A stretch of DNA of 64,000 bases from Usitatibacter rugosus (GTDB lineage Bacteria > Pseudomonadota > Gammaproteobacteria > Burkholderiales > Usitatibacteraceae). The notes beneath the pieces are model-generated. The model saw only the letters and a list, made by a program, of their open reading frames with translations. It made no database searches and was not told the origin of the DNA. Where the stretch lies: NCBI RefSeq assembly GCF_013003965.1, contig NZ_CP053069.1, positions 899,419 through 963,418 on the forward strand. Direction: 5' to 3'. Numbering within the stretch: position 1 is the first letter of the stretch; each line of letters starts with the position of its first letter. This document shows positions 6,707-41,341 of the stretch, one piece after another. The translations under genes were made by a program, and so were the position numbers.

Positions 6707-7668
6707 AGACCGCCCGCTCGCTGCTCGCGTTCCTGCTCGTGTCGCTCGCCGCTTCCGCCGCGGCGCAGGACTGGCCCTCGAAGCCGGTGAAGATCATCGT
6801 CCCGTTCCCGCCGGGCCAGGCGACGGACACGCTCGCGCGCCTCGTCGCCGAGAAGCTCACGACCGCGCTCGGCCAACCCTTCATCATCGACAACCGTCCC
6901 GGCGCGGGCGGCGTGCTCGGCACCGAGGTCGCGAAGAACTCGGCTCCCGACGGCTACACGCTCGTGATGGCGCCGATCTCGTCGTTCGCGATCAACGTGG
7001 CGCTGCAGCCCAAGCTGCCGTACGACCCGCTGAAGGACTTCGCGCCGATCGCCAACATCGGCCTCACGCCGCAAGTGATCATGGCGAACCCGAAGGCGGG
7101 CATCACGTCGATCAAGGATCTCGTGGCGAAAGCCAAGGCCAAGCCGGGCGAGCTCTTCTTCGCATCGTCGGGCAACGGGTCGGCGAGCCACCTCGCGATG
7201 GAATCGCTGCAGCTCGCCGCGGGCATCAAGCTCACGCACGTCCCCTTCAAGGGCAACTCGGACGCGTTCGCGCAAGTGATGGGCGGGCAGATTCCGATCA
7301 TCTCCGACGCGGTGCCGGGCGCCGTGCCGCAGGTGAAGGGCGGGAAGCTCGTGGCACTCGGCGTCGCTTCCCTGCAACGCTCGCCGTACTTGCCCGACGT
7401 TCCGACCGTCGCGGAGCAGGGCTACCCGGGCTTCGAGGTCGTGGGCTGGATCGGCATCGCGGCGCCGGCGAAGGTGCCCGCGCCGATCCTCGATCGCCTG
7501 AACGCGGAGATCCGCAAGGCGCTCGAGCAGCCCGACGTGAAGGAGAAGCTCACCGCCGCGTCGTTCGTGACCGCCGGCGGTTCGCGCGCCGAGTTCACGG
7601 AATTCATCCGCGCCGAGATCGCGCGCTGGACGAAGGTCGTGAAGGAAGCGAACGTCAAGACCGACTAG
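6703..7668 (+). CDS. Bug-family solute-binding protein, second copy in operon
   Basis: A 321-residue periplasmic carboxylate-binding protein with a Sec signal peptide (about residues 1-22, ASAAAQD). It shows the Bug marks KIIVPFPPGQATDT, FIIDNRPGAGGVLG and LTHVPFKGNSDA. The ligand loop reads PPGQATDT where the first copy has PPGGSNDT, so the two receptors may bind different acids. Translation is coupled by ATGA to the amidohydrolase. A REPIN palindrome begins at the last base of its TAG stop. Confidence 0.9.
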   Translation: MKTARSLLAFLLVSLAASAAAQDWPSKPVKIIVPFPPGQATDTLARLVAEKLTTALGQPFIIDNRPGAGGVLGTEVAKNSAPDGYTLVMAPISSFAINVALQPKLPYDPLKDFAPIANIGLTPQVIMANPKAGITSIKDLVAKAKAKPGELFFASSGNGSASHLAMESLQLAAGIKLTHVPFKGNSDAFAQVMGGQIPIISDAVPGAVPQVKGGKLVALGVASLQRSPYLPDVPTVAEQGYPGFEVVGWIGIAAPAKVPAPILDRLNAEIRKALEQPDVKEKLTAASFVTAGGSRAEFTEFIRAEIARWTKVVKEANVKTD

Positions 7669-7754
7669 GAAAAATAATTGGGGTCAGACTCCCATTTGCG
7701 TTTCTGTCCGATTCACGGGACTGCAAATGGGAGTCTGACCCCAATTATTTTTCC
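7668..7754. repeat. REPIN palindrome 1 (GGGGTCAGACTCCCATTT type)
   Basis: Two inverted copies of an arm of about 32 bp beginning GGAAAAATAATTGGGGTCAG, separated by about 23 bp. It is the longest-armed member of the family. It lies between convergent genes: the left arm starts at the Bug-protein stop, and the right arm encodes the last two residues and TAA of the cupin. The GGGGTCAGAC core is typical of REP sequences mobilised by RAYT-type Y1 transposases; no such transposase gene is in the window. Confidence 0.88.
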
Positions 7755-8158
7755 AGCGCGACCTTTTGCTCCGCTGTCGGCAGTTGAGGCCTGTCCCTCT
7801 CCGTCGACACCATGCAAAGAAATCCGAGCGGTTCGTCCGCTGCCGCACGGAATTGATGCCACGTCATCGGAGGCACGCTCACGAGATCGTTCTGCCCGAT
7901 GTCGTGGTCCTTGCCCTCGATCACGCAGCGTCCGTGTCCGCGGATCACCATCACGGCATGGGTGTGCTCGTGGCGCTCCAACGTCGTCCATCCCCCAGGC
8001 TGCACCTCGAAGTAGCGAAGCTGCGCCGGGAACATGGGATCGCCGAAGAGCACCTGGCGCGTCACGTCCCTGAAGGGCGCGCTGCCTTCGTCCTTGTACT
8101 CGAGGACGTCCACGTCCTTCCAGTGGAAGTCGCCGCTGTGCTTTCGAACCAGGTCCAT
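7745..8158 (-). CDS. Cupin-domain protein
   Basis: A 137-residue single-domain beta-barrel cupin. Metal-site motif 1 is seen in GGWTTLERHEHTHAVMVIRGHG (about residues 55-76), with Glu and two His. Motif 2 is in VPPMTWHQFRAAADEPLGFL. Such proteins serve as dioxygenases, isomerases or ligand sensors, and the substrate is not readable. The C-terminal Glu-Lys and the TAA stop lie inside REPIN 1, so the original C-terminus was probably a little different. The esterase gene lies immediately upstream on the same strand (4-bp gap), so the two are probably cotranscribed. Confidence 0.8.
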   Translation of the reverse strand: MDLVRKHSGDFHWKDVDVLEYKDEGSAPFRDVTRQVLFGDPMFPAQLRYFEVQPGGWTTLERHEHTHAVMVIRGHGRCVIEGKDHDIGQNDLVSVPPMTWHQFRAAADEPLGFLCMVSTERDRPQLPTAEQKVALEK

Positions 8159-8162
8159 GGCG

Positions 8163-8834
8163 CTATTTTACGCCGAGGAAGAACCGGACCAGCGCCTCCG
8201 TGGGATCGGGCTTGCGGGACCAGACGTGGGCACCGCCCTTGAAGGTGATCGTCGGCACCCCCCGATCGGCTCCGCGAAGGGATGCGACGGTCGGTGAGGA
8301 ATGAATGGCGGCGCCCGCGAAGAGATCCGGATACGCAGCGGCGAGAATCGCCGCCATCGCGCCACCCGCCGAGAAGCCGGCGACGAAGACGCGCTTCCGA
8401 TCGATGCCGTAGCGCTCGACGATCGCCTTCGTCATGCTGGCCAGCATCGCGGGCTCGCCGCGGCCCCGTTCCTGGTGCCGCGATTGAAACCAGTTCCAGC
8501 ACCCCATGGCGTTCGCCTTTCGCGACTGCGCCGGATACAGCACGTACAAGCCCCGCTCGCGAGCCAGCGCGTTCATGCGCGTGCTCGTGGCGAAGGTGTC
8601 CGGATCCTGCGTGCATCCATGCAGCATCACGAGCAGGGGGGCACCGCTCTCCGCAGCTGCCGGCGGGATGTAGAGCTTGTAGCGATGTCCCTTCGAGCGA
8701 TACGCGTGCGTCCCCGCCGCGAATCGTTCGCCACTCCGCGGTGGGCGATTAACGGCCGGAACGTACGTAGCCGCATCGACCCACGCGCGTTGCAGGGCGA
8801 TGCCCTGGCGCATGAGGCGGCGGAAGGAACGCAT
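8163..8834 (-). CDS. PHB-depolymerase-family esterase, internally shortened
   Basis: A 223-residue alpha/beta hydrolase of the PHB depolymerase/LpqC group. The oxyanion segment LLVMLHGCTQDPDTFA, the AMGCWNWF segment and the nucleophile elbow GFSAGGAMA are intact. Family members are usually about 300-400 residues and have a further block with the acidic triad residue (HGxxD) before a terminal His (GHxW). Here the sequence runs straight from VPTITFKGGAHVW to the end. The Asp block and roughly 50-70 residues appear deleted in frame. It may be inactive or use another acid. No export signal is obvious. It sits just upstream of the cupin gene. Confidence 0.75.
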   Translation of the reverse strand: MRSFRRLMRQGIALQRAWVDAATYVPAVNRPPRSGERFAAGTHAYRSKGHRYKLYIPPAAAESGAPLLVMLHGCTQDPDTFATSTRMNALARERGLYVLYPAQSRKANAMGCWNWFQSRHQERGRGEPAMLASMTKAIVERYGIDRKRVFVAGFSAGGAMAAILAAAYPDLFAGAAIHSSPTVASLRGADRGVPTITFKGGAHVWSRKPDPTEALVRFFLGVK

Positions 8835-19464: not shown

Positions 19465-19562
19465 TTTCTTGGTGGGTTCGGATGCAGCGGCAACATCGCC
19501 GCCACCCTTGGATACGCCCACCCCCGTGTTCCGGATTGCGGAATATTCGGCAGAAAGACTGC

Positions 19563-33781: not shown

Positions 33782-35032
33782 TCAAGCGACCTTCACCTTG
33801 AATCCGCCCGCGTACTTCACCGGGTCCTTGCCATCCCACACGACGCCATCCATCAGCTTGGAGGTGCGCATCACGTCCTTCGGCACCGGGACCTTCGCCG
33901 CGGCAGCCGCCTGCTTGTAGATCTCGATCTGGTTCACCTTCTTCGCGACGGCGACGTAATCGGGGTCTTCCTTCAGCAGGCCCCAGCGCCGGTGCTGCGT
34001 CATGAACCACATGCCGTCGGAGAGGTAGGGGAAGTTCACCGCACCGTCGTTGCAGAACTTCATGTAGTCGGGGTCCTGCCACTTCTTGCCGTTGCCGTCC
34101 TCGTACGCGCCGAGGAAGCGGCCGAGGATCACGTCGGTGTCGGTGTTCACGTAGGACTTCTGTGCGATCACCTCCGCCGTCTCCTTGCGGTTGGCGGGCG
34201 AGGCGTCGATCCACTTGCCGGCTTCGAGGACGGCGGCCGTCATGGCGCGCGCGGTGTTGGGATACTTCTGGACGAACTCGGCCGTGGTGCCGAGCGTCTT
34301 CTCGGGGTGGTCCTTCCAGATCGCCTGCGTGGTGATGCTGGTGAAGCCGATCTTGTCGGCGATGGCGCGCGCGCCCCAGGGCTCGCCCACGCAGAAGCCG
34401 TCCATGTTGCCGACGCGCATGTTGGCCACCATCTGCGGCGGTGGGACGGTGATGGTCTTCACGTCCTTCATCGGGTTGATGCCGGCCGCGGCGAGCCAGT
34501 AGTAGATCCACATGGCGTGCGTGCCGGTGGGGAAGGTCTGCGCGAACGTGTACTCGCGCTTCTCCTTCGCGATGAGCGCGGCGAGCGAGGCGCCGTCGAT
34601 CGCGCCCTTCTCCTTCAGCTGCTGGGAGAGCGTGATGGCCTGGCCGTTGTTGTTGAGGTTCATCATCACGGCCATGTCCTTCTTCGGGCCGCCGATGCCC
34701 ATCTGCACGCCGTAGATGAGGCCGTAGAGGACGTGCGCCGCGTCGATCTCGCCGTTCACGAGCTTGTCGCGCACCGCGGCCCACGAGGCTTCCTTGGTCG
34801 GCGTGATGGTGATGCCGTACTTCTTGTCGAAGCCCTTCACGTTGGCCATCACGACGGAGGCGCAATCGGTGAGGGGGATGAAGCCGATCTTGAGGTCCGT
34901 CTTCTCGGGCGCGTCGGAGCCCGCGGCCCAGACCGAGGCGCGCAGCTGCGGCGTGAGCGTGGCCATCAGGGCCGCTCCGCCCTGCGCGAGGAACTTGCGT
35001 CGTGCGCCATGGTTCATCCCCTTCTTCTTCAT
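33782..35032 (-). CDS. Nitrate-binding ABC transporter protein (NrtA/NasF type)
   Basis: A 416-residue CmpA/NrtA-family solute-binding protein. It starts with a twin-arginine signal (RRKFLAQGG, about residues 11-19), so it is exported folded. The mature part begins LKIGFIPLTDCASVVMANVKG; TFPTGTHAMWIYYWLAAAGI and GNMDGFCVGEPWGARAI are nitrate-pocket segments. It is the first structural gene after the NasT-responsive leader. Because it is exported it is unlikely to double as the cytoplasmic nitrate sensor NasS, which belongs to the same family. Confidence 0.92.
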   Translation of the reverse strand: MKKKGMNHGARRKFLAQGGAALMATLTPQLRASVWAAGSDAPEKTDLKIGFIPLTDCASVVMANVKGFDKKYGITITPTKEASWAAVRDKLVNGEIDAAHVLYGLIYGVQMGIGGPKKDMAVMMNLNNNGQAITLSQQLKEKGAIDGASLAALIAKEKREYTFAQTFPTGTHAMWIYYWLAAAGINPMKDVKTITVPPPQMVANMRVGNMDGFCVGEPWGARAIADKIGFTSITTQAIWKDHPEKTLGTTAEFVQKYPNTARAMTAAVLEAGKWIDASPANRKETAEVIAQKSYVNTDTDVILGRFLGAYEDGNGKKWQDPDYMKFCNDGAVNFPYLSDGMWFMTQHRRWGLLKEDPDYVAVAKKVNQIEIYKQAAAAAKVPVPKDVMRTSKLMDGVVWDGKDPVKYAGGFKVKVA

Positions 35033-35260: not shown

Positions 35261-35325
35261 ATGAATAAAGGGGTCAGACCACTTCATTGCTCCGGGCAAT
35301 GAAGTGGTCTGACCCCTTTATTCAT
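35261..35325. repeat. REPIN palindrome 3 (between nasT and the nrtA leader)
   Basis: Perfect 30-bp arms (ATGAATAAAGGGGTCAGACC...CATTGC) around a 5-bp loop. The TGA stop of nasT is inside the distal end. The hairpin sits in the transcript between nasT and the leader and could act as an RNA-stabilising or processing element. Confidence 0.9.
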
Positions 35326-35900
35326 CCGAGGAGTGAGGAGATGGAGATGACCTGGCGAGCGATGTCGCCGAGCTTCTGGTTCTTTTCCATCGCGAGGTTG
35401 CGCAGCGCCCGGAAGGCCTCCTCTTCGGTGAAGCCACGCTGTTTCATGATGATGCCCTTCGCGCGCTCGATCACCTTGCGGTCGGCGAGCTGCGACTTGG
35501 CGTCGGAGAGCTCCGCGAGCAGCTTCTGGTCGGCCTCGAAGCGCTCGATCGCCACGCGCATCACGGGCTCCAGGCGGCTGGCGCTCACGCCTTCAACGAC
35601 ATAGGCCGAGACGCCCGCCTTGATCGCGGCGCGGATGGAGTCGTTCTGCGAGTCGTCGGAGAAGAGCACGACCGGGCGCGGCGCACTCGAGGAGACGGCG
35701 GCGAGCTGTTCCAGCACGTCGCGGCTGGGCGAATCCGTGTCGATCAGGACGATGTCGGGCCGGTGCTCGGCCACCCGGTCGAAGAGCTCGAGCGGCGATT
35801 CGAGCGTGCATGCGACCTCCACGCCCGGCATCGACGACAGCGCCTGGCGGAGGGAGGAGGCCCGCCCGGGAGTGTTGTCGACGACCAGCACCTTGAGCAT
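35322..35900 (-). CDS. nasT: NasT-type ANTAR antiterminator
   Basis: A 192-residue protein with an N-terminal receiver-like domain (KVLVVDNTPGRASSLRQAL; VLIDTDSPSRD in place of the phosphoacceptor region). A coiled-coil linker follows (about 115-140), then a C-terminal ANTAR RNA-binding domain: SDAKSQLADRKVIERAKGIIM and RGFTEEEAFRALRNLAMEKN. In other proteobacteria the nitrate sensor NasS holds NasT until nitrate binds. No nasS lies beside this gene. A consensus sigma-54 promoter precedes it, so nitrogen limitation and nitrate both gate the operon. Its stop lies in REPIN 3. Confidence 0.9.
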   Translation of the reverse strand: MLKVLVVDNTPGRASSLRQALSSMPGVEVACTLESPLELFDRVAEHRPDIVLIDTDSPSRDVLEQLAAVSSSAPRPVVLFSDDSQNDSIRAAIKAGVSAYVVEGVSASRLEPVMRVAIERFEADQKLLAELSDAKSQLADRKVIERAKGIIMKQRGFTEEEAFRALRNLAMEKNQKLGDIARQVISISSLLG

Positions 35901-35948: not shown

Positions 35949-36076
35949 CGCCCACGGGCGGCCGGATGCGTGAATATTCGACAAGCCCCCGTCCACTGCG
36001 CCCCTCATGCCGGGGCCTGCCCTGCGGCAAGATGCCGGTGTACGATCACAACGCATTCCCCAAGGAGCAGCGAAAA

Positions 36077-36310
36077 ATGTCGACCAAAGAGCAGAAGCCC
36101 GGCGAACTCTCCGACCAGCAACTCGACCAGGTGTCGGGCGGCCAGGAGATCCGCAAGATGGAGAAGATCGTCGTCACCGCGAAGCGCAGCGACGTGAACC
36201 CCCAGCAAGTGGTGAAGATGGACAAGATCGTCGTCAGCGCGCGCCGCGACGACAAGGACCCGGCAGGCATCGCCGGCGCCCAGGTCGCGCAAGCCGACAC
36301 CAAGAAGTGA
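36077..36310 (+). CDS. Double-glycine precursor peptide with two TonB-box-like core repeats
   Basis: A 77-residue peptide with a strong ribosome site (AAGGAG). Residues 1-22 are a typical double-glycine leader: PGELSDQQLDQVSGG, cut after Gly22 by C39 peptidases. The predicted 55-residue core has no Cys and contains a 16-residue unit twice, 20 residues apart: KMEKIVVTAKRSDVNP (27-42) and KMDKIVVSARRDDKDP (47-62). KIVVTAKR-like strings after an acidic residue look like the TonB box of TonB-dependent receptors (consensus about D/E-x-IVVTA). The gene is convergent with, and 13 bp from, a C39/NHLP-type export operon. It is not a recognised bacteriocin family. No immunity gene is obvious. Confidence 0.75.
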   Translation: MSTKEQKPGELSDQQLDQVSGGQEIRKMEKIVVTAKRSDVNPQQVVKMDKIVVSARRDDKDPAGIAGAQVAQADTKK

Positions 36311-36323
36311 GCGTGGGGGCCGC

Positions 36324-38483
36324 TCAGGCCCCTTGCGTGGAGAGCATCGACTGGAAGTGTCCGGGAACCGCGGCCAGCTCCGCGTAAGTCCCGGACTGGG
36401 CGATCCGCCCGCCGTCGAGCACCACGATGCGGTCGGCATTGCGCACGGTGTTCAGCCGATGCGCGACGACGATCCGGGTCGCCGCCAATCCCCGTAGCGA
36501 TTCCAGCACCGCGGCCTGCGCCACGTTGTCGAGCGCGCTCGTCGCTTCGTCCAGCAGCAGCACGCGCGGCTTCGTCGCCAGCGCGCGCGCCAGCATCACG
36601 CGCTGGCGTTGCCCGCCGGAGATGGTCGAGAGTCCCTCGCCCACCAGCGTATAGAGACCCATCGGCATCGCCTCGATCTCGGCGGCGATGCCGGCGAGGC
36701 GCGCCGCTTCCCACGCGCTCTCCACGTCGAGGTTCGCCGCACCCGCGATGTTGGTGAAGAGGTCGCCGGCCCACAGCGTGCCGCTTTGCAGGACGGTGCC
36801 GATGCCGCGGCGAAGCCTGCGCACGTCCAGCGTCGCGAGATCTTTCCCGTCGTAGAGCACGCGGCCTTGCGCCGGCGCTTCGAACCCCAGCAGCAGCCGG
36901 ATCAGCGTGGATTTGCCCGATCCGCTCGCGCCGACGATCGCGACGAACTCGCCGGGCCGGATCTCGAGGTCGACGCCGCGCAGCACTTCCGCGCCGCCGG
37001 GATAGGCGAACGAAATCCCCTGCAGGTGGATGTGGCCCTGCGGCTCGTGGCGCTGTCCGCGTGCCGTGTCGTTCTCGGGCACGGTCGCGAGGATCGGGCG
37101 CGCGCGTTCCCACAAGGGCTTCAGGCGCAGCACCGCCATCCAGGTACCGACGAGCGAATGCACGGCGCCCAGCACCGCGAAGAGCGCGGCCTGGAATGCG
37201 ATGAACTGCCCTGTCGTCAGCGCGGTCCCGCGCAACGCTCCGATGTCGAGGCGCCACGCGAGGTCGTAGAGGAGGATCGCCGAGGCCGGAAAGAGCAGGC
37301 TCAACGCCACCATCTCGAGGTTCGCGAGCTTGGTGCTGCGCCGGTTCAGCGCCCGCAGCGTCTCGTAGTCCACGAAGTAGTTGTCGTAGGCGCGCGATTC
37401 CGCCGCCGCGGCGCGCAGCTTCGCAACGCCGGTGAGGTATTCGACGCTGAGGCCATTGAGCTTTCCATCGAGGGCCTCGATCGTGCGTCCCAACCTCAGG
37501 CGCAGGAGCCCGACCGCGGCGGGAATCGCGATCGCCGCGAGGATGAGCACGACCGACGCGGCCGCGAGCGTGCCGCTGTACTTGAAGAGCAGCGCGGTGT
37601 TGGCGAGCAGGAAGAGCCCGGTGACGATCGTGCCGATCGCCGCACCCGCGATGGAGCGCTGCACCGCGTTGGCCGCGGACATGCGCAGCGCCAGGTCCCC
37701 GCTCGCGAAGGCGCGGAAGAACGTGGCCGGCGCGGCGATCACGCGATCGAGCATCGCGGCCTGCACGGCGATGGTCGTGCGCGCTTCGAAGCGCTGCACC
37801 GCGAGCGAACGCAACACCTCGAGCCCGACGAGCGCGAGACCCGCGCCCGCGAGCCCGGCGATGAGCTGGCCCACCAGGCCGAGCGCCGCTGTGGGAATCG
37901 CGCGGTCGATGAGGAAGCCGGTCGCGATCGGCGTGAGAAGCCCCACCAGCGCGGCGGCGACGCCCGTGGCGATCACCGTGCTCGCGTCGGCGCGGTTGTG
38001 GCGCCACGCGAAGCGCAGCACGTCGATCGTGCCGAGGGCGCGGCGCTCGAAGCGGCGATGGAACGTGTACGCGAAGGGCGAGAGGCGCGCGGCCGTCGCT
38101 TCATCGACCACCCACTCCACTTCATCTTTCGAGTCGGCCGCATACATCCGGTAGCCGGAGACCGGATGCGGAACGAGCGCGACCCAGCCCGTGCCTGCGG
38201 GTGAGCGCGTCACATCGGGGTCGGTGGCGCGCGCCTTGCTGCGGCGCTCGGCCACGCGAGCCAGCATCGGCAGGCCCGCGCCCTCCCACCAGCGGCCGTC
38301 GAGGATCACGCGCCGCGCGAGCAGGCCCGCGCCGGCCGCGGTCTCTTCGACCGCATCCCAGGGATCGACCGCGCTGGAGAGCTCGGGCGACGCTTCGAAG
38401 CGGATGCCGATCGCCGTCTCCAGCAGGCGCAGCGCCGCGGGCAGCGTCGTCGAGCGAAGCGAGAGCCCGGGATCGTGGCTCAT
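36324..38483 (-). CDS. NHLP-type peptide-export ABC transporter, permease/ATPase without peptidase
   Basis: A 719-residue ABC exporter half. An N-terminal cytoplasmic region of about 150 residues, typical of the second NHLP-family transporter, is followed by six membrane helices (about 165-440). The ATPase has Walker A IVGASGSGKST, signature ISGGQRQRVMLARAL, Walker B VLLLDEATSALD and AHRLNTVRNAD. The start overlaps the C39 transporter stop by ATGA. It probably forms a heterodimer with the peptidase-bearing partner to export the processed peptide. The stop is 13 bp from the convergent precursor gene. Confidence 0.87.
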   Translation of the reverse strand: MSHDPGLSLRSTTLPAALRLLETAIGIRFEASPELSSAVDPWDAVEETAAGAGLLARRVILDGRWWEGAGLPMLARVAERRSKARATDPDVTRSPAGTGWVALVPHPVSGYRMYAADSKDEVEWVVDEATAARLSPFAYTFHRRFERRALGTIDVLRFAWRHNRADASTVIATGVAAALVGLLTPIATGFLIDRAIPTAALGLVGQLIAGLAGAGLALVGLEVLRSLAVQRFEARTTIAVQAAMLDRVIAAPATFFRAFASGDLALRMSAANAVQRSIAGAAIGTIVTGLFLLANTALLFKYSGTLAAASVVLILAAIAIPAAVGLLRLRLGRTIEALDGKLNGLSVEYLTGVAKLRAAAAESRAYDNYFVDYETLRALNRRSTKLANLEMVALSLLFPASAILLYDLAWRLDIGALRGTALTTGQFIAFQAALFAVLGAVHSLVGTWMAVLRLKPLWERARPILATVPENDTARGQRHEPQGHIHLQGISFAYPGGAEVLRGVDLEIRPGEFVAIVGASGSGKSTLIRLLLGFEAPAQGRVLYDGKDLATLDVRRLRRGIGTVLQSGTLWAGDLFTNIAGAANLDVESAWEAARLAGIAAEIEAMPMGLYTLVGEGLSTISGGQRQRVMLARALATKPRVLLLDEATSALDNVAQAAVLESLRGLAATRIVVAHRLNTVRNADRIVVLDGGRIAQSGTYAELAAVPGHFQSMLSTQGA

Positions 38484-40657
38484 GACACGGCGTCCATCGC
38501 CACCAGTGCGGCATAGCGCCCGTCGGGAATCTTCACGAGGTCCTCGTGGCGGCCGCGTTCCACGACGCGGCCCGTGTCGAGCACGACGATCTCGTCGGCG
38601 GCTCGCACGGTCGAGAGGCGGTGAGCGATCACGAGGCAGGCGATGCCGCGGCGCTTGAGGCTCGCGTCGACCGTGGCTTCGGTCAGCGGGTCGAGGGCAC
38701 TCGTCGCTTCATCGAGGATGAGGATGGAGGGCGAGGCGGCGAGGGCGCGAGCGATCTCCAGCCGCTGGCGTTGGCCGCCGCTGAGATTGCGCGCGCCTTC
38801 CTGCAGCGGAGCCTCGAGCGCACCGGGGCGTCCGAGGATTTCCTGTTCCAGGGCTGCGTCGCGAAGCGCTTCGCGGATCGCGTCCTCGCCGATGCGCGGA
38901 TCCCACAGCGCGAGGTTGTCCCGCACGCTGCCCTGGAAGAGAACGACGTCCTGGTCCACGTACGCAACCGAGCGGGCGAGCGCGACGCGGTCCCATTCCG
39001 AGCGAGGTTTGCCGTCGAAGAGGACTTCCCCTTGCCACGGTGAGTAGAGGCCGACGGCGAGGCGACCCAGCGTCGACTTGCCGCATCCGGAAGCGCCCAC
39101 CAGTGCGACCCGCTGCCCGGCCTTCAGCGTGAGCGAGAAATCCTCGACCAGCGGCGGCTCCCCACGGTTGTAGCCGAAGGTGACGCCGCGGAATTCGAGC
39201 GTCGCGGCTTTCTCCAGGGGCGCCTCCTGCTTTGGCCGCGTCATCGTGACCTTCGCGTCGCCCTTGTAGTGCAGCACGTCGTCCAGGCGCGCGAGGTCGC
39301 CGGTCAGCGTCTGCATGTGCTGCGTGGCCGCGAAGAGCGCGTGCACCGGCGCCGTGAAACCCGCGAGCAGGACCTGGAAGGCCACGAGGTTGCCGACCGT
39401 GAACGTCCCTTCGATGATGCGCAGCGATCCGAGCCCCAGCACCGCGAGGTACGCGACGAGCGAGAGCAGTCCCGGCACCTGGCCCAGCGTGAGCGACAGC
39501 CGCTGAGCCTGCACCGTGGCATTCGAGAGCTGCACCTGCAAGCCCATCCAGCGGGCGAAGAGCACGGGCTCGAGTCCGGCGGCCTTGATGCCCTCGATGT
39601 TGGCGAGCGCACCCGAGGCCGCGCCCGCAAGCTTGCCCGCGCGCGTGGAGAGCTGCCGCGAGATCTCCGCGGTGCGCTCGGCGAGCACGCGCCAGACGAA
39701 GAGCTCGAGCGCGAGGCATGCCACGACGATGATCGCGAGACCGGCCTCGAGCTGCACCATGAGGATGAGATAGAAGCTCGCGGTGAGCAGGCTCAGCGCC
39801 AGGTGAGCGAGGTCGTTGGAGATCGTCTCGGCCACGCGCTCGTTGAGATCCACGCGCGAGGCGATCTCGCCCGGCGAGCGCTGCACGAAGAACTCCATCG
39901 GCAGCGAGAGCGCGTGGCCCACGAAGCGGCGCGAGGCCTGCGCCGCGGCGCGCCCGTACGTATCCATCAACAAGTGCGCCTGGATCCAGAGCAGCGCGGA
40001 GCGGGCGAGGGCTGCCAACCCGAGGCCGATCAGGAGCGGCCCCGCAACGCCGCCCATCTTCCCGACCAGCACCTCGTCGACGAAGCGGCCCATGAACCAC
40101 GGCAACAGCAATCCGGGAGGGACCAGCAGCACGCCCAGCACGATCGCGAATGCGATGGACGGGTGCATGCCCTCGAGGTACTGCGCGAGGGATCGCATGA
40201 TGGAGGGCTTGTCCCCGCCCGGCTGGAACTCGGGTCCGCGCTCGAACGTGAGCACGACGCCCGTGAACGCGGAGTCGAACTCCTCGGAACCAACCTTGCG
40301 GCGGCCGAGCGCCGGGTCGCTGATCCACGCCTGGCCGTCCTCGAAGCCCTCGAGCACGACGAAGTGGTTGAAGTTCCAGAACAGGATCGACGGGAAGGGC
40401 AGCTCGGCGAGATCCCTCGGTTCCTTCTTGAAGCCGCGCGCGATCAATCCGAACGTGCGAGCCGCGCGCAGGATGTTGCCCGCCTTGCTGCCGTCGCGAG
40501 AAACACCGCAGGCCACGCGCAGCACTTCGAGCGGCACCCAGCGGCCGTGATGCGCAAGCACCATGGCCAGCGCGGCCGCGCCGCATTCGACGCTTTCGAG
40601 CTGGAGAACCGCCGGGACGCGACGGATCGCGGTGTTCAGCGAGCCGTCAGCAGCCAT
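38480..40657 (-). CDS. C39 peptidase-containing ABC exporter (PCAT, NHLP type)
   Basis: A 725-residue transporter that removes double-glycine leaders and exports the peptide. The N-terminal C39 domain is complete: QLESVECGAAALAMVLAHHG (catalytic Cys at about 25), the NFNHFVVLEGFE segment (His at about 97), then WISDPALG (Asp). Six membrane helices follow (about 165-440), then Walker A LVGASGCGKST, signature LSGGQRQRLEIARAL, Walker B ILILDEATSALD. All protease residues are present, so it should be active. The start lies inside the end of the 58-residue stub gene. Confidence 0.9.
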   Translation of the reverse strand: MAADGSLNTAIRRVPAVLQLESVECGAAALAMVLAHHGRWVPLEVLRVACGVSRDGSKAGNILRAARTFGLIARGFKKEPRDLAELPFPSILFWNFNHFVVLEGFEDGQAWISDPALGRRKVGSEEFDSAFTGVVLTFERGPEFQPGGDKPSIMRSLAQYLEGMHPSIAFAIVLGVLLVPPGLLLPWFMGRFVDEVLVGKMGGVAGPLLIGLGLAALARSALLWIQAHLLMDTYGRAAAQASRRFVGHALSLPMEFFVQRSPGEIASRVDLNERVAETISNDLAHLALSLLTASFYLILMVQLEAGLAIIVVACLALELFVWRVLAERTAEISRQLSTRAGKLAGAASGALANIEGIKAAGLEPVLFARWMGLQVQLSNATVQAQRLSLTLGQVPGLLSLVAYLAVLGLGSLRIIEGTFTVGNLVAFQVLLAGFTAPVHALFAATQHMQTLTGDLARLDDVLHYKGDAKVTMTRPKQEAPLEKAATLEFRGVTFGYNRGEPPLVEDFSLTLKAGQRVALVGASGCGKSTLGRLAVGLYSPWQGEVLFDGKPRSEWDRVALARSVAYVDQDVVLFQGSVRDNLALWDPRIGEDAIREALRDAALEQEILGRPGALEAPLQEGARNLSGGQRQRLEIARALAASPSILILDEATSALDPLTEATVDASLKRRGIACLVIAHRLSTVRAADEIVVLDTGRVVERGRHEDLVKIPDGRYAALVAMDAVS

Positions 40658-40812
40658 GCGGCAAAGGCGGCGGTGCCGGCGAGCAGCACCGCGAGGGCGA
40701 GCAACACGCTGCGCGGATAACCGAGGAGCTGCAGGCGTGCATCGAGCTTCTCGGGGGATGCGAGGCGCGCCAGCGCCGCGTCGCGGTACAGGGGGCTCTT
40801 GTCGCGGGCCAT
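40636..40812 (-). CDS. Stub of NHLP-type membrane fusion protein (58 residues)
   Basis: Small ORF overlapping the C39 transporter by 22 bp. Its start KSPLYRDAALARLASPEKLD, then about ten residues and a hydrophobic helix (about 36-55), matches only the first part of NHLP secretion adaptor proteins (pattern RxxALxRLSSPEQLD...PRGWLALLAL). Those continue for some 200-300 periplasmic residues. Here translation stops right after the helix with Thr-Ala-Arg. The overlap with its neighbour shows this is the settled gene form. It may anchor or assemble the ABC pair without a periplasmic channel. Confidence 0.65.
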   Translation of the reverse strand: MARDKSPLYRDAALARLASPEKLDARLQLLGYPRSVLLALAVLLAGTAAFAAWLLTAR

Positions 40813-40816
40813 GGCT

Positions 40817-41341
40817 CTAGCCCGCGAGGCGCTTCAGCATGCGGTCGAAGCGCGCACCCGCCAGGTGGACGGTGTCGAGCAGGTCGTCGTTCAGCTCGTC
40901 CGCGGAGTGCTTGTCGAGGGCGCCCGTGCCGTAGCCCATGCGCAGCGTCGTGTTGCGCATGCGGTCGGCGAGGAACACGCAGAGCGCGCGATAGAAGCGC
41001 GCGGCGAAAGCCGTATCGGACGCGAGCTTGGCGCGCACTTTCGAATCGGGAATGCGCAGCAGCGTCGCATCGGCGTCGATCTCCACGGAGACGACGGTGG
41101 GCGCCGGATCGACGAGCGACATCTCGCCGATCACCTCGCCGGATTCGAGCAGGCGGATCACGTCGCCCTTCGCGGTCTTGATCGCGAGCCGGCCGTCGAG
41201 CACGAAGTAGATGCTGTCGACGCGCACGTTGTTGCCGATCAGCACCGCACCCTTCTCGAGGTGGATCCGGTCGCCGGCAGTCGAGAGCCACTCGACGTCG
41301 CCGTCGGTGAGCTCGCTGAAGATGAGCAGGACCTTGCGCAT
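40817..41341 (-). CDS. Cyclic-nucleotide-binding protein of the peptide-export operon
   Basis: A 174-residue cNMP-binding beta-barrel domain: RIHLEKGAVLIGNNVRVDSIYFVLDGRL, GEVIGEMSLVDPAPTVVSVEI (phosphate-binding cassette region; the family's second Arg is not evident), then helices with ARFYRALCVFLADRMRNT. No helix-turn-helix follows, so it is not a CRP-type regulator. Such cNMP proteins recur beside bacteriocin-type ABC exporters. It is the first gene of the four-gene export operon, with 4 bp to the stub. It may gate transport by a nucleotide or simply be a structural partner. Confidence 0.82.
   Translation of the reverse strand: MRKVLLIFSELTDGDVEWLSTAGDRIHLEKGAVLIGNNVRVDSIYFVLDGRLAIKTAKGDVIRLLESGEVIGEMSLVDPAPTVVSVEIDADATLLRIPDSKVRAKLASDTAFAARFYRALCVFLADRMRNTTLRMGYGTGALDKHSADELNDDLLDTVHLAGARFDRMLKRLAG

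Follow-up and report, generated by a model that had tools for sequence, protein, structure and literature searches.

A double-glycine precursor with two TonB-box-like units beside an NHLM-type export cassette with a truncated adaptor in Usitatibacter rugosus

What would a bacterium do with an exported peptide that consists largely of TonB boxes? TonB drives the import of nutrients such as iron complexes and vitamin B12, and serves as an entry gate for phages and bacteriocins; to our knowledge, how TonB is shared among many receptors is an open matter. We analyzed 64,000 nucleotides of Usitatibacter rugosus (NCBI RefSeq assembly GCF_013003965.1, contig NZ_CP053069.1, positions 899,419 to 963,418, forward strand), hereafter the window. 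It contains a gene for a double-glycine (GG) precursor whose predicted mature product carries two units resembling the TonB boxes of outer-membrane receptors. The two-unit design is real and conserved. From sequence comparisons we put forward, as a tentative reading that falls a little short of an even chance, that the cell supplies its own periplasm with such stand-alone TonB boxes, which would compete there with receptors for TonB. The features of the peptide gene, in window coordinates, are:

36077..36310 (stop included), + strand: double-glycine precursor of a tandem TonB-box-like peptide, 77 residues, with homologues in 12/28 genomes of the host's family
36077..36142, + strand: leader, 22 residues, C-terminal end ELSDQQLDQVSGG, fitting most of the NHLP/N11P pre-GG motif
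36155..36187, + strand: TonB-box-like unit 1, KMEKIVVTAKR, residues 27-37, 21.6 bits against the host receptor-box matrix
36215..36247, + strand: TonB-box-like unit 2, KMDKIVVSARR, residues 47-57, 13.7 bits against the same matrix

The open reading frame runs from an ATG at 36077 to a stop at 36310, with AAGGAG at 36062-36067, nine bases 5' of the ATG. It encodes, in order, the leader, unit 1, a linker, unit 2 and a 20-residue tail. The Gly-Gly pair was read at residues 21-22, and the leader was compared with the pre-GG motif of NHLP/N11P precursors as given in the available part of PMC2887384. The predicted mature peptide has 55 residues, a net charge of +4 and no cysteine. A preliminary description of this locus had reported a 77-residue double-glycine precursor with two units 20 residues apart and no cysteine, and our reading confirmed it. 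No NCBIfam or Pfam model matched the precursor above its cut-off, and Pfam at E up to 1 returned no family at all, neither a plug or barrel nor a receptor-binding or killing domain. The leader likewise matched no model above its cut-off, NHLP and Nif11 included: the NHLP leader model TIGR03793 scored 12.6 bits (cut-off 50.9) and the bacteriocin signal model TIGR01847 scored 13.7 bits (cut-off 15.7). There were no matches of the precursor to plasmids or of a profile of the core to viral contigs, and none of the core profile to solved structures at E up to 10.

How closely do the units resemble TonB boxes? The scoring matrix was derived from 20 of the host's own 24 receptors (18 unique boxes, placed by eye, with background frequencies entered by hand); receptors L053, L058, L061 and L068 have no clear box and were excluded. 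The receptor boxes behind the matrix score 15.0-28.4 bits. We shuffled the cores of 9 of the 12 GG peptides, leaving out near-identical ones. The best unit score was reached by at most 1 of 20000 shuffles in eight of the nine (7 of 20000 in G014), and none of 20000 reached both units in any of the nine. A core profile (A2, built from 13 two-unit cores) led to the same place by another route. In the host genome, at E up to 1, it gave six matches: the precursor itself (1.4e-19) and five weak ones (0.009-0.19). Each of these five either overlaps the start of a Plug domain or precedes it by 6-18 nt (L047, L052, L055, L057, L067), and thus falls at the TonB-box place of receptors. In the 28 family genomes the profile gave 115 rows beyond the 28 two-unit rows, 81 of them in frames of at least 550 residues (hand-typed list), and Plug followed directly behind the box in all seven long-frame rows tested. 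Outside the family three rows passed E 0.001 among 399 genomes of the order and 398 of the phylum, two samples that overlap in part and of which the first holds only 13 family genomes; Plug lay directly behind in all three. Since the profile at E 0.001 cannot separate one-box proteins from receptors, these searches do not demonstrate that one-box proteins are absent outside the family.

The precursor was sought in 61 genomes, the host's own and 60 relatives, 28 of them of the host's family. All 12 clear members (E 2.1e-43 to 1.5e-6) fall within the family. Some match at E up to 1 occurred in 39 of the 61 genomes, the non-members being weak, mostly in long frames, and some ClpB-like by eye. Homologues keep unit 2 in the same place and form, and changes can be paired within a peptide: both units carry VTG in G014, and both read LDTMVVTATR in G019. 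By Nei-Gojobori counts, pooled over 4 chosen pairs of the 10 printed, the ratio of non-synonymous to synonymous change (pN/pS) is 0.14 for the units, 0.34 for the leader, 1.09 for the linker and 0.84 for the tail. The units are lowest, so that the units, and not the leader alone, are conserved. Pair by pair they lie below the leader in 7 of 10, above it in 2, and are undefined in 1. The preliminary description had asked whether the units hold while the flanks vary, whether the members co-occur with the exporter and where a search without the leader would lead. The pN/pS values agree with the first point and contradict the opposite case, a conserved leader with drifting IVVTA units; co-occurrence holds in 12 of 12 members, as set out below; and the leaderless profile leads to the TonB-box place of receptors.

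Two observations on related precursors stand beside these. A sequence titled 'Lysobacter sp.' (JAMPXV010000180.1, L075) holds the same gene as G016 of the betaproteobacterial family, and is perhaps mistitled. There are also GG precursors whose leaders read GELSDxQLEAVxGG and whose cores are unrelated, four in G194 (L085, L087, L089, L090) and one in G374 (L086).

How would the peptide leave the cytoplasm? Tail to tail with the precursor, on the opposite strand, lies an operon for a cyclic nucleotide monophosphate (cNMP)-binding protein, a 58-residue stub and two ATP-binding cassette (ABC) proteins:

36324..38483, - strand: second ABC protein (ABC2), a permease-ATPase without peptidase, NHLM ABC2-like, TIGR03797 682.8 bits
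38480..40657, - strand: C39 peptidase-permease-ATPase exporter (ABC1), NHLM ABC1, TIGR03796 895.6 bits, above the cut-off of 853.3
40636..40812, - strand: NHLM HlyD adaptor stub, 58 residues, cytoplasmic tail and membrane helix only, identified by a stub profile
40817..41341, - strand: cNMP-binding protein of the NHLM-associated TIGR03896 kind, PF00027 E 1.3e-13

The exporter is a variant of the NHLM kind. Its C39 domain (Pfam Peptidase_C39, E 2.7e-34) has the triad Cys25, His98 and Asp114 in the translation, as the preliminary description had claimed. The second NHLP-type ABC protein and the cNMP-binding protein named there are present too, with scores below their models' cut-offs: TIGR03797 falls just under (682.8 vs 709.4), yet is the best family by far, and TIGR03896 reaches 124.4 bits (cut-off 161.05) over the C-terminal half of the model only. 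That account did not include the stub gene. A profile built from nine stubs, one of them from the window, aligns with residues 8-53 of a full NHLM HlyD protein (L091, E 8.1e-9); among the 633 sequences scanned, the next match after L091, the window's own stub aside, was at 0.037. The stub frame stops directly after the membrane helix in all 12 loci where it is readable. In the 399 order genomes the stub occurs in six family genomes, and four matches outside the family lie in frames of 422-581 residues. The host genome has no full HlyD adaptor over the TIGR03794 cut-off (best 63.9 vs 156.2), and no modifying enzyme was recognised in the cassette. In one same-genus genome there is a second NHLM system, a full one whose HlyD adaptor is complete (L165, G001:C160).

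In all 12 members (the window and 11 relatives) the precursor and ABC2 genes are arranged tail to tail. The cNMP-stub-ABC1-ABC2-precursor order stands on a single contig in 9 of the 12, one with its cNMP gene cut by the contig end; three cassettes run off contig ends, and further pieces turned up for two of these. An ABC1 orthologue is present in all 12 family genomes with the precursor (in G018 as a cut piece only) and in 1 of the 16 without it, G020, where the contig ends within ABC2 before the precursor site. The ABC1 of G017 is distant, at 31% identity.

The same pair of units also occurs behind an unrelated N-terminus. In a sister genus, g2, small proteins have a hydrophobic N-terminal stretch, judged by eye to be a Sec-like signal and in many cases ending in an AxA-like site, followed by two units. 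We found 16 such Sec-type genes in 9 of 13 g2 genomes (E up to 2.1e-7; each was read) alongside the 12 GG genes in 12 of the 28 family genomes. G019 carries both kinds, and at least one kind is present in 20 of the 28. The units are 15-16 residues apart in seven Sec-type proteins and 18-22 in eight GG peptides. At 15 Sec-type loci no C39-NHLM exporter was found, four of them giving only matches to the ATPase part at 26-31% identity. The nine Sec-type loci listed have no common neighbour; the pairs L143/L144 and L140/L141 share neighbours. Eight relatives (six Sec-type, two GG) matched no NCBIfam or Pfam model over cut-off. One Sec-type protein gave a weak match (0.063) to the N-terminal part of a model for TonB-dependent receptors, and one gave none to plasmids and phages. 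Among the weaker core-profile rows were L194, a two-unit form from a genome of the host's genus, and L155, whose second unit is degenerate. Other rows were small g2 proteins in which only one box follows a hydrophobic N-terminal stretch and sits at the C-terminus or close to it (L196, L197, L199, L200, L201, and in L148 at 7638-7826 and 8143-8367).

The host has TonB machinery in number: 24 matches to Plug and seven to TonB_C exceed the cut-off. For one TonB protein of the host, solved TonB chains were matched, among them 2grx and 2gsk, structures that show TonB together with a receptor box. Two adjoining genes some 30 kb ahead of the window (G000:C1:868205-869478; L171, L172) encode secreted-looking TonB_C proteins with no membrane anchor by eye, one of them with two TonB_C stretches; they are possible soluble partners for a two-box peptide.

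Taken in order, the steps of the proposed mechanism would be as follows. The C39 domain would cut the precursor after Gly-Gly and, with no adaptor extending as far as the outer membrane, the 55-residue core would be released into the periplasm. There the core would bind TonB and compete with the receptors, and the sister genus would do the same through two-box proteins with a Sec-like signal. An effect of the peptide on TonB is plausible, and the peptide may be a natural brake on TonB-driven uptake. The wider idea seems to us evenly poised: that gene-encoded TonB-box peptides of one or two boxes, standing free of any receptor, form an undescribed class in the family. They would get to the periplasm in several ways (through a C39-NHLM exporter that lost its adaptor, through Sec-like signals or perhaps through membrane anchors) and serve as built-in competitors or regulators in TonB-dependent transport.

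Several results weigh against delivery of TonB boxes into the periplasm. The 13.7 bits of unit 2 lie under the lowest receptor box of the matrix (15.0), so unit 2 is the weaker match. With the whole precursor as query, the host genome gave two weak matches, both to non-receptors, one of them ClpB-like by eye. The pooled counts for the units are small (14.3 synonymous and 6.7 non-synonymous changes), and the leader is the more constrained part in the pairs W-L035 (units 0.57, leader 0.31) and W-L034 (units 0.20, leader 0.17). The core profile found no two-unit gene in the well-covered g2 genomes G006, G011 and G013, and none was found in G008 and G007, of other genera, or in other genomes. AlphaFold was uninformative on the precursor (11 sequences; mean predicted local distance difference test score, pLDDT, 54.9). 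The host genome also has five weak matches to other HlyD-type proteins, one of which could stand in for the missing adaptor.

Another reading is that the product goes outward, against rivals, to jam their TonB or to be imported through its boxes in the manner of TonB-dependent colicins. Bacteriocins are common among double-glycine peptides that have C39 exporters. The available part of PMC11658791 describes colicins entering through TonB boxes (ETLTV in colicin M). The peptide might have a novel killing activity. The adaptor toward the outer membrane, however, is a stub in all 12 loci read, the sister genus uses Sec-like signals with no such exporter at the 15 loci searched, and neither an immunity gene nor a killing domain was recognised; we regard an outward role as improbable. 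From the truncated adaptor and the signal-bearing relatives, delivery within the cell's own envelope is the favoured reading. Of the preliminary description's interpretation, the part that turned on sequence was upheld, and its periplasmic version is now favoured over a peptide passed outward to rivals. A plain double-glycine bacteriocin that resembles TonB boxes by chance could explain the weak leader matches to bacteriocin models; none of these is above cut-off, and the shuffles, the constraint on the units and the recurrence of the unit pair behind unrelated N-termini make this very improbable. Chance likeness is disfavoured by the shuffles and the constraint together.

Other explanations accept the boxes and differ over their use. 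A TonB-binding peptide might be a working part instead of a brake, anchoring or presenting something, reporting occupancy or bridging two TonB proteins. The fairly constant spacing of the boxes within each type suits this, and conservation and likeness suit any TonB-binding role; but no other domain or conserved partner gene was seen besides the exporter, and the tail and linker are little constrained, so that we think such a role unlikely. Rather doubtful, in our judgment, is a signalling peptide whose boxes serve a partner other than TonB, such as the host's soluble double TonB_C proteins or a protease acting at basic pairs. In its favour are the secreted-looking pair described above, one member of which has two TonB_C stretches, and the KR, RR or QR at the end of the units, seen in the window peptide as well as in several relatives. 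A basic residue is, however, common after receptor boxes too, so that no processing role is needed, and no signal receptor turned up, although none was sought. Delivery of TonB boxes to compete in the periplasm thus stays our tentative choice.

The surroundings of the gene add one further feature:

35968..35983, strand not assigned: palindrome-like GAATATTC site 5' of the precursor, with related sites upstream of several homologues

The palindrome was found upstream of most GG precursors aligned, and an exact TGNNGAATATTCNNCA site also occurs at 19537-19552. Genome-wide there are 34 sites with at most two mismatches, against 12 for a reversed control. By their coordinates, the Plug and TonB_C matches all lie more than 1 kb away from the listed sites, and therefore no regulon is claimed; a simple scan found no sigma-70-like promoter. 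On the other side of the palindrome lie an ANTAR-domain response regulator and an adjoining nitrate-type-like ABC uptake operon, as judged by eye (35322-35900 and 33782-35032, both - strand). The regulator-precursor neighbourhood is kept in G004 and G003.

If the proposal is true, a natural peptide made of TonB boxes alone would be a direct means of setting receptor competition for TonB, and a peptide exporter would have been adapted to delivery inside the envelope. We rate the peptide product as categorically new: titles and abstract openings of the literature searched, with subscription journals mostly outside its scope, contained no natural stand-alone TonB-box peptide. Synthetic ones have a history. 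The available part of PMC11308372 states that the free TonB-box pentapeptide ETVIV inhibits TonB in vivo at high concentration, and that of PMC5413942 that ETVIV served to block TonB at 200 ug/ml; both trace it to Tuckman and Osburne 1992. Natural box sequences would be useful, as the synthetic pentapeptide needs high concentration (PMC11308372).

How does the system compare with what is known? With the NHLM/NHLP cassette (TIGR03794, TIGR03796, TIGR03797), as far as the accessible portion of PMC2887384 describes it, the locus shares the C39-ABC exporter, the second ABC protein, a GG precursor with a similar pre-GG motif and a TIGR03896-like cNMP protein. It differs in that HlyD is reduced to its tail and membrane helix, no NHLP or Nif11 leader scores over cut-off and no modifying enzyme was recognised. 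With the TonB-dependent receptors of the family, the units share the sequence of the box (e.g. KLENIVVTAQRR and KVEKIEVTGS), and the Sec-type relatives also share the order of signal, short spacer and box; in contrast to receptors, the peptide has neither plug nor barrel, and the box is doubled and makes up most of the mature product. TonB-dependent colicins, represented by colicin M in the accessible portion of PMC11658791, are likewise non-receptor polypeptides with a TonB box, whereas the window peptide has no recognised receptor-binding or killing domain and no outward route was seen. Synthetic ETVIV, as described in PMC11308372 and PMC5413942, is likewise a TonB-box peptide in free form, expected to compete for TonB; unlike it, the window peptide is gene-encoded, carries two boxes and is predicted to be delivered by an exporter from inside the cell.

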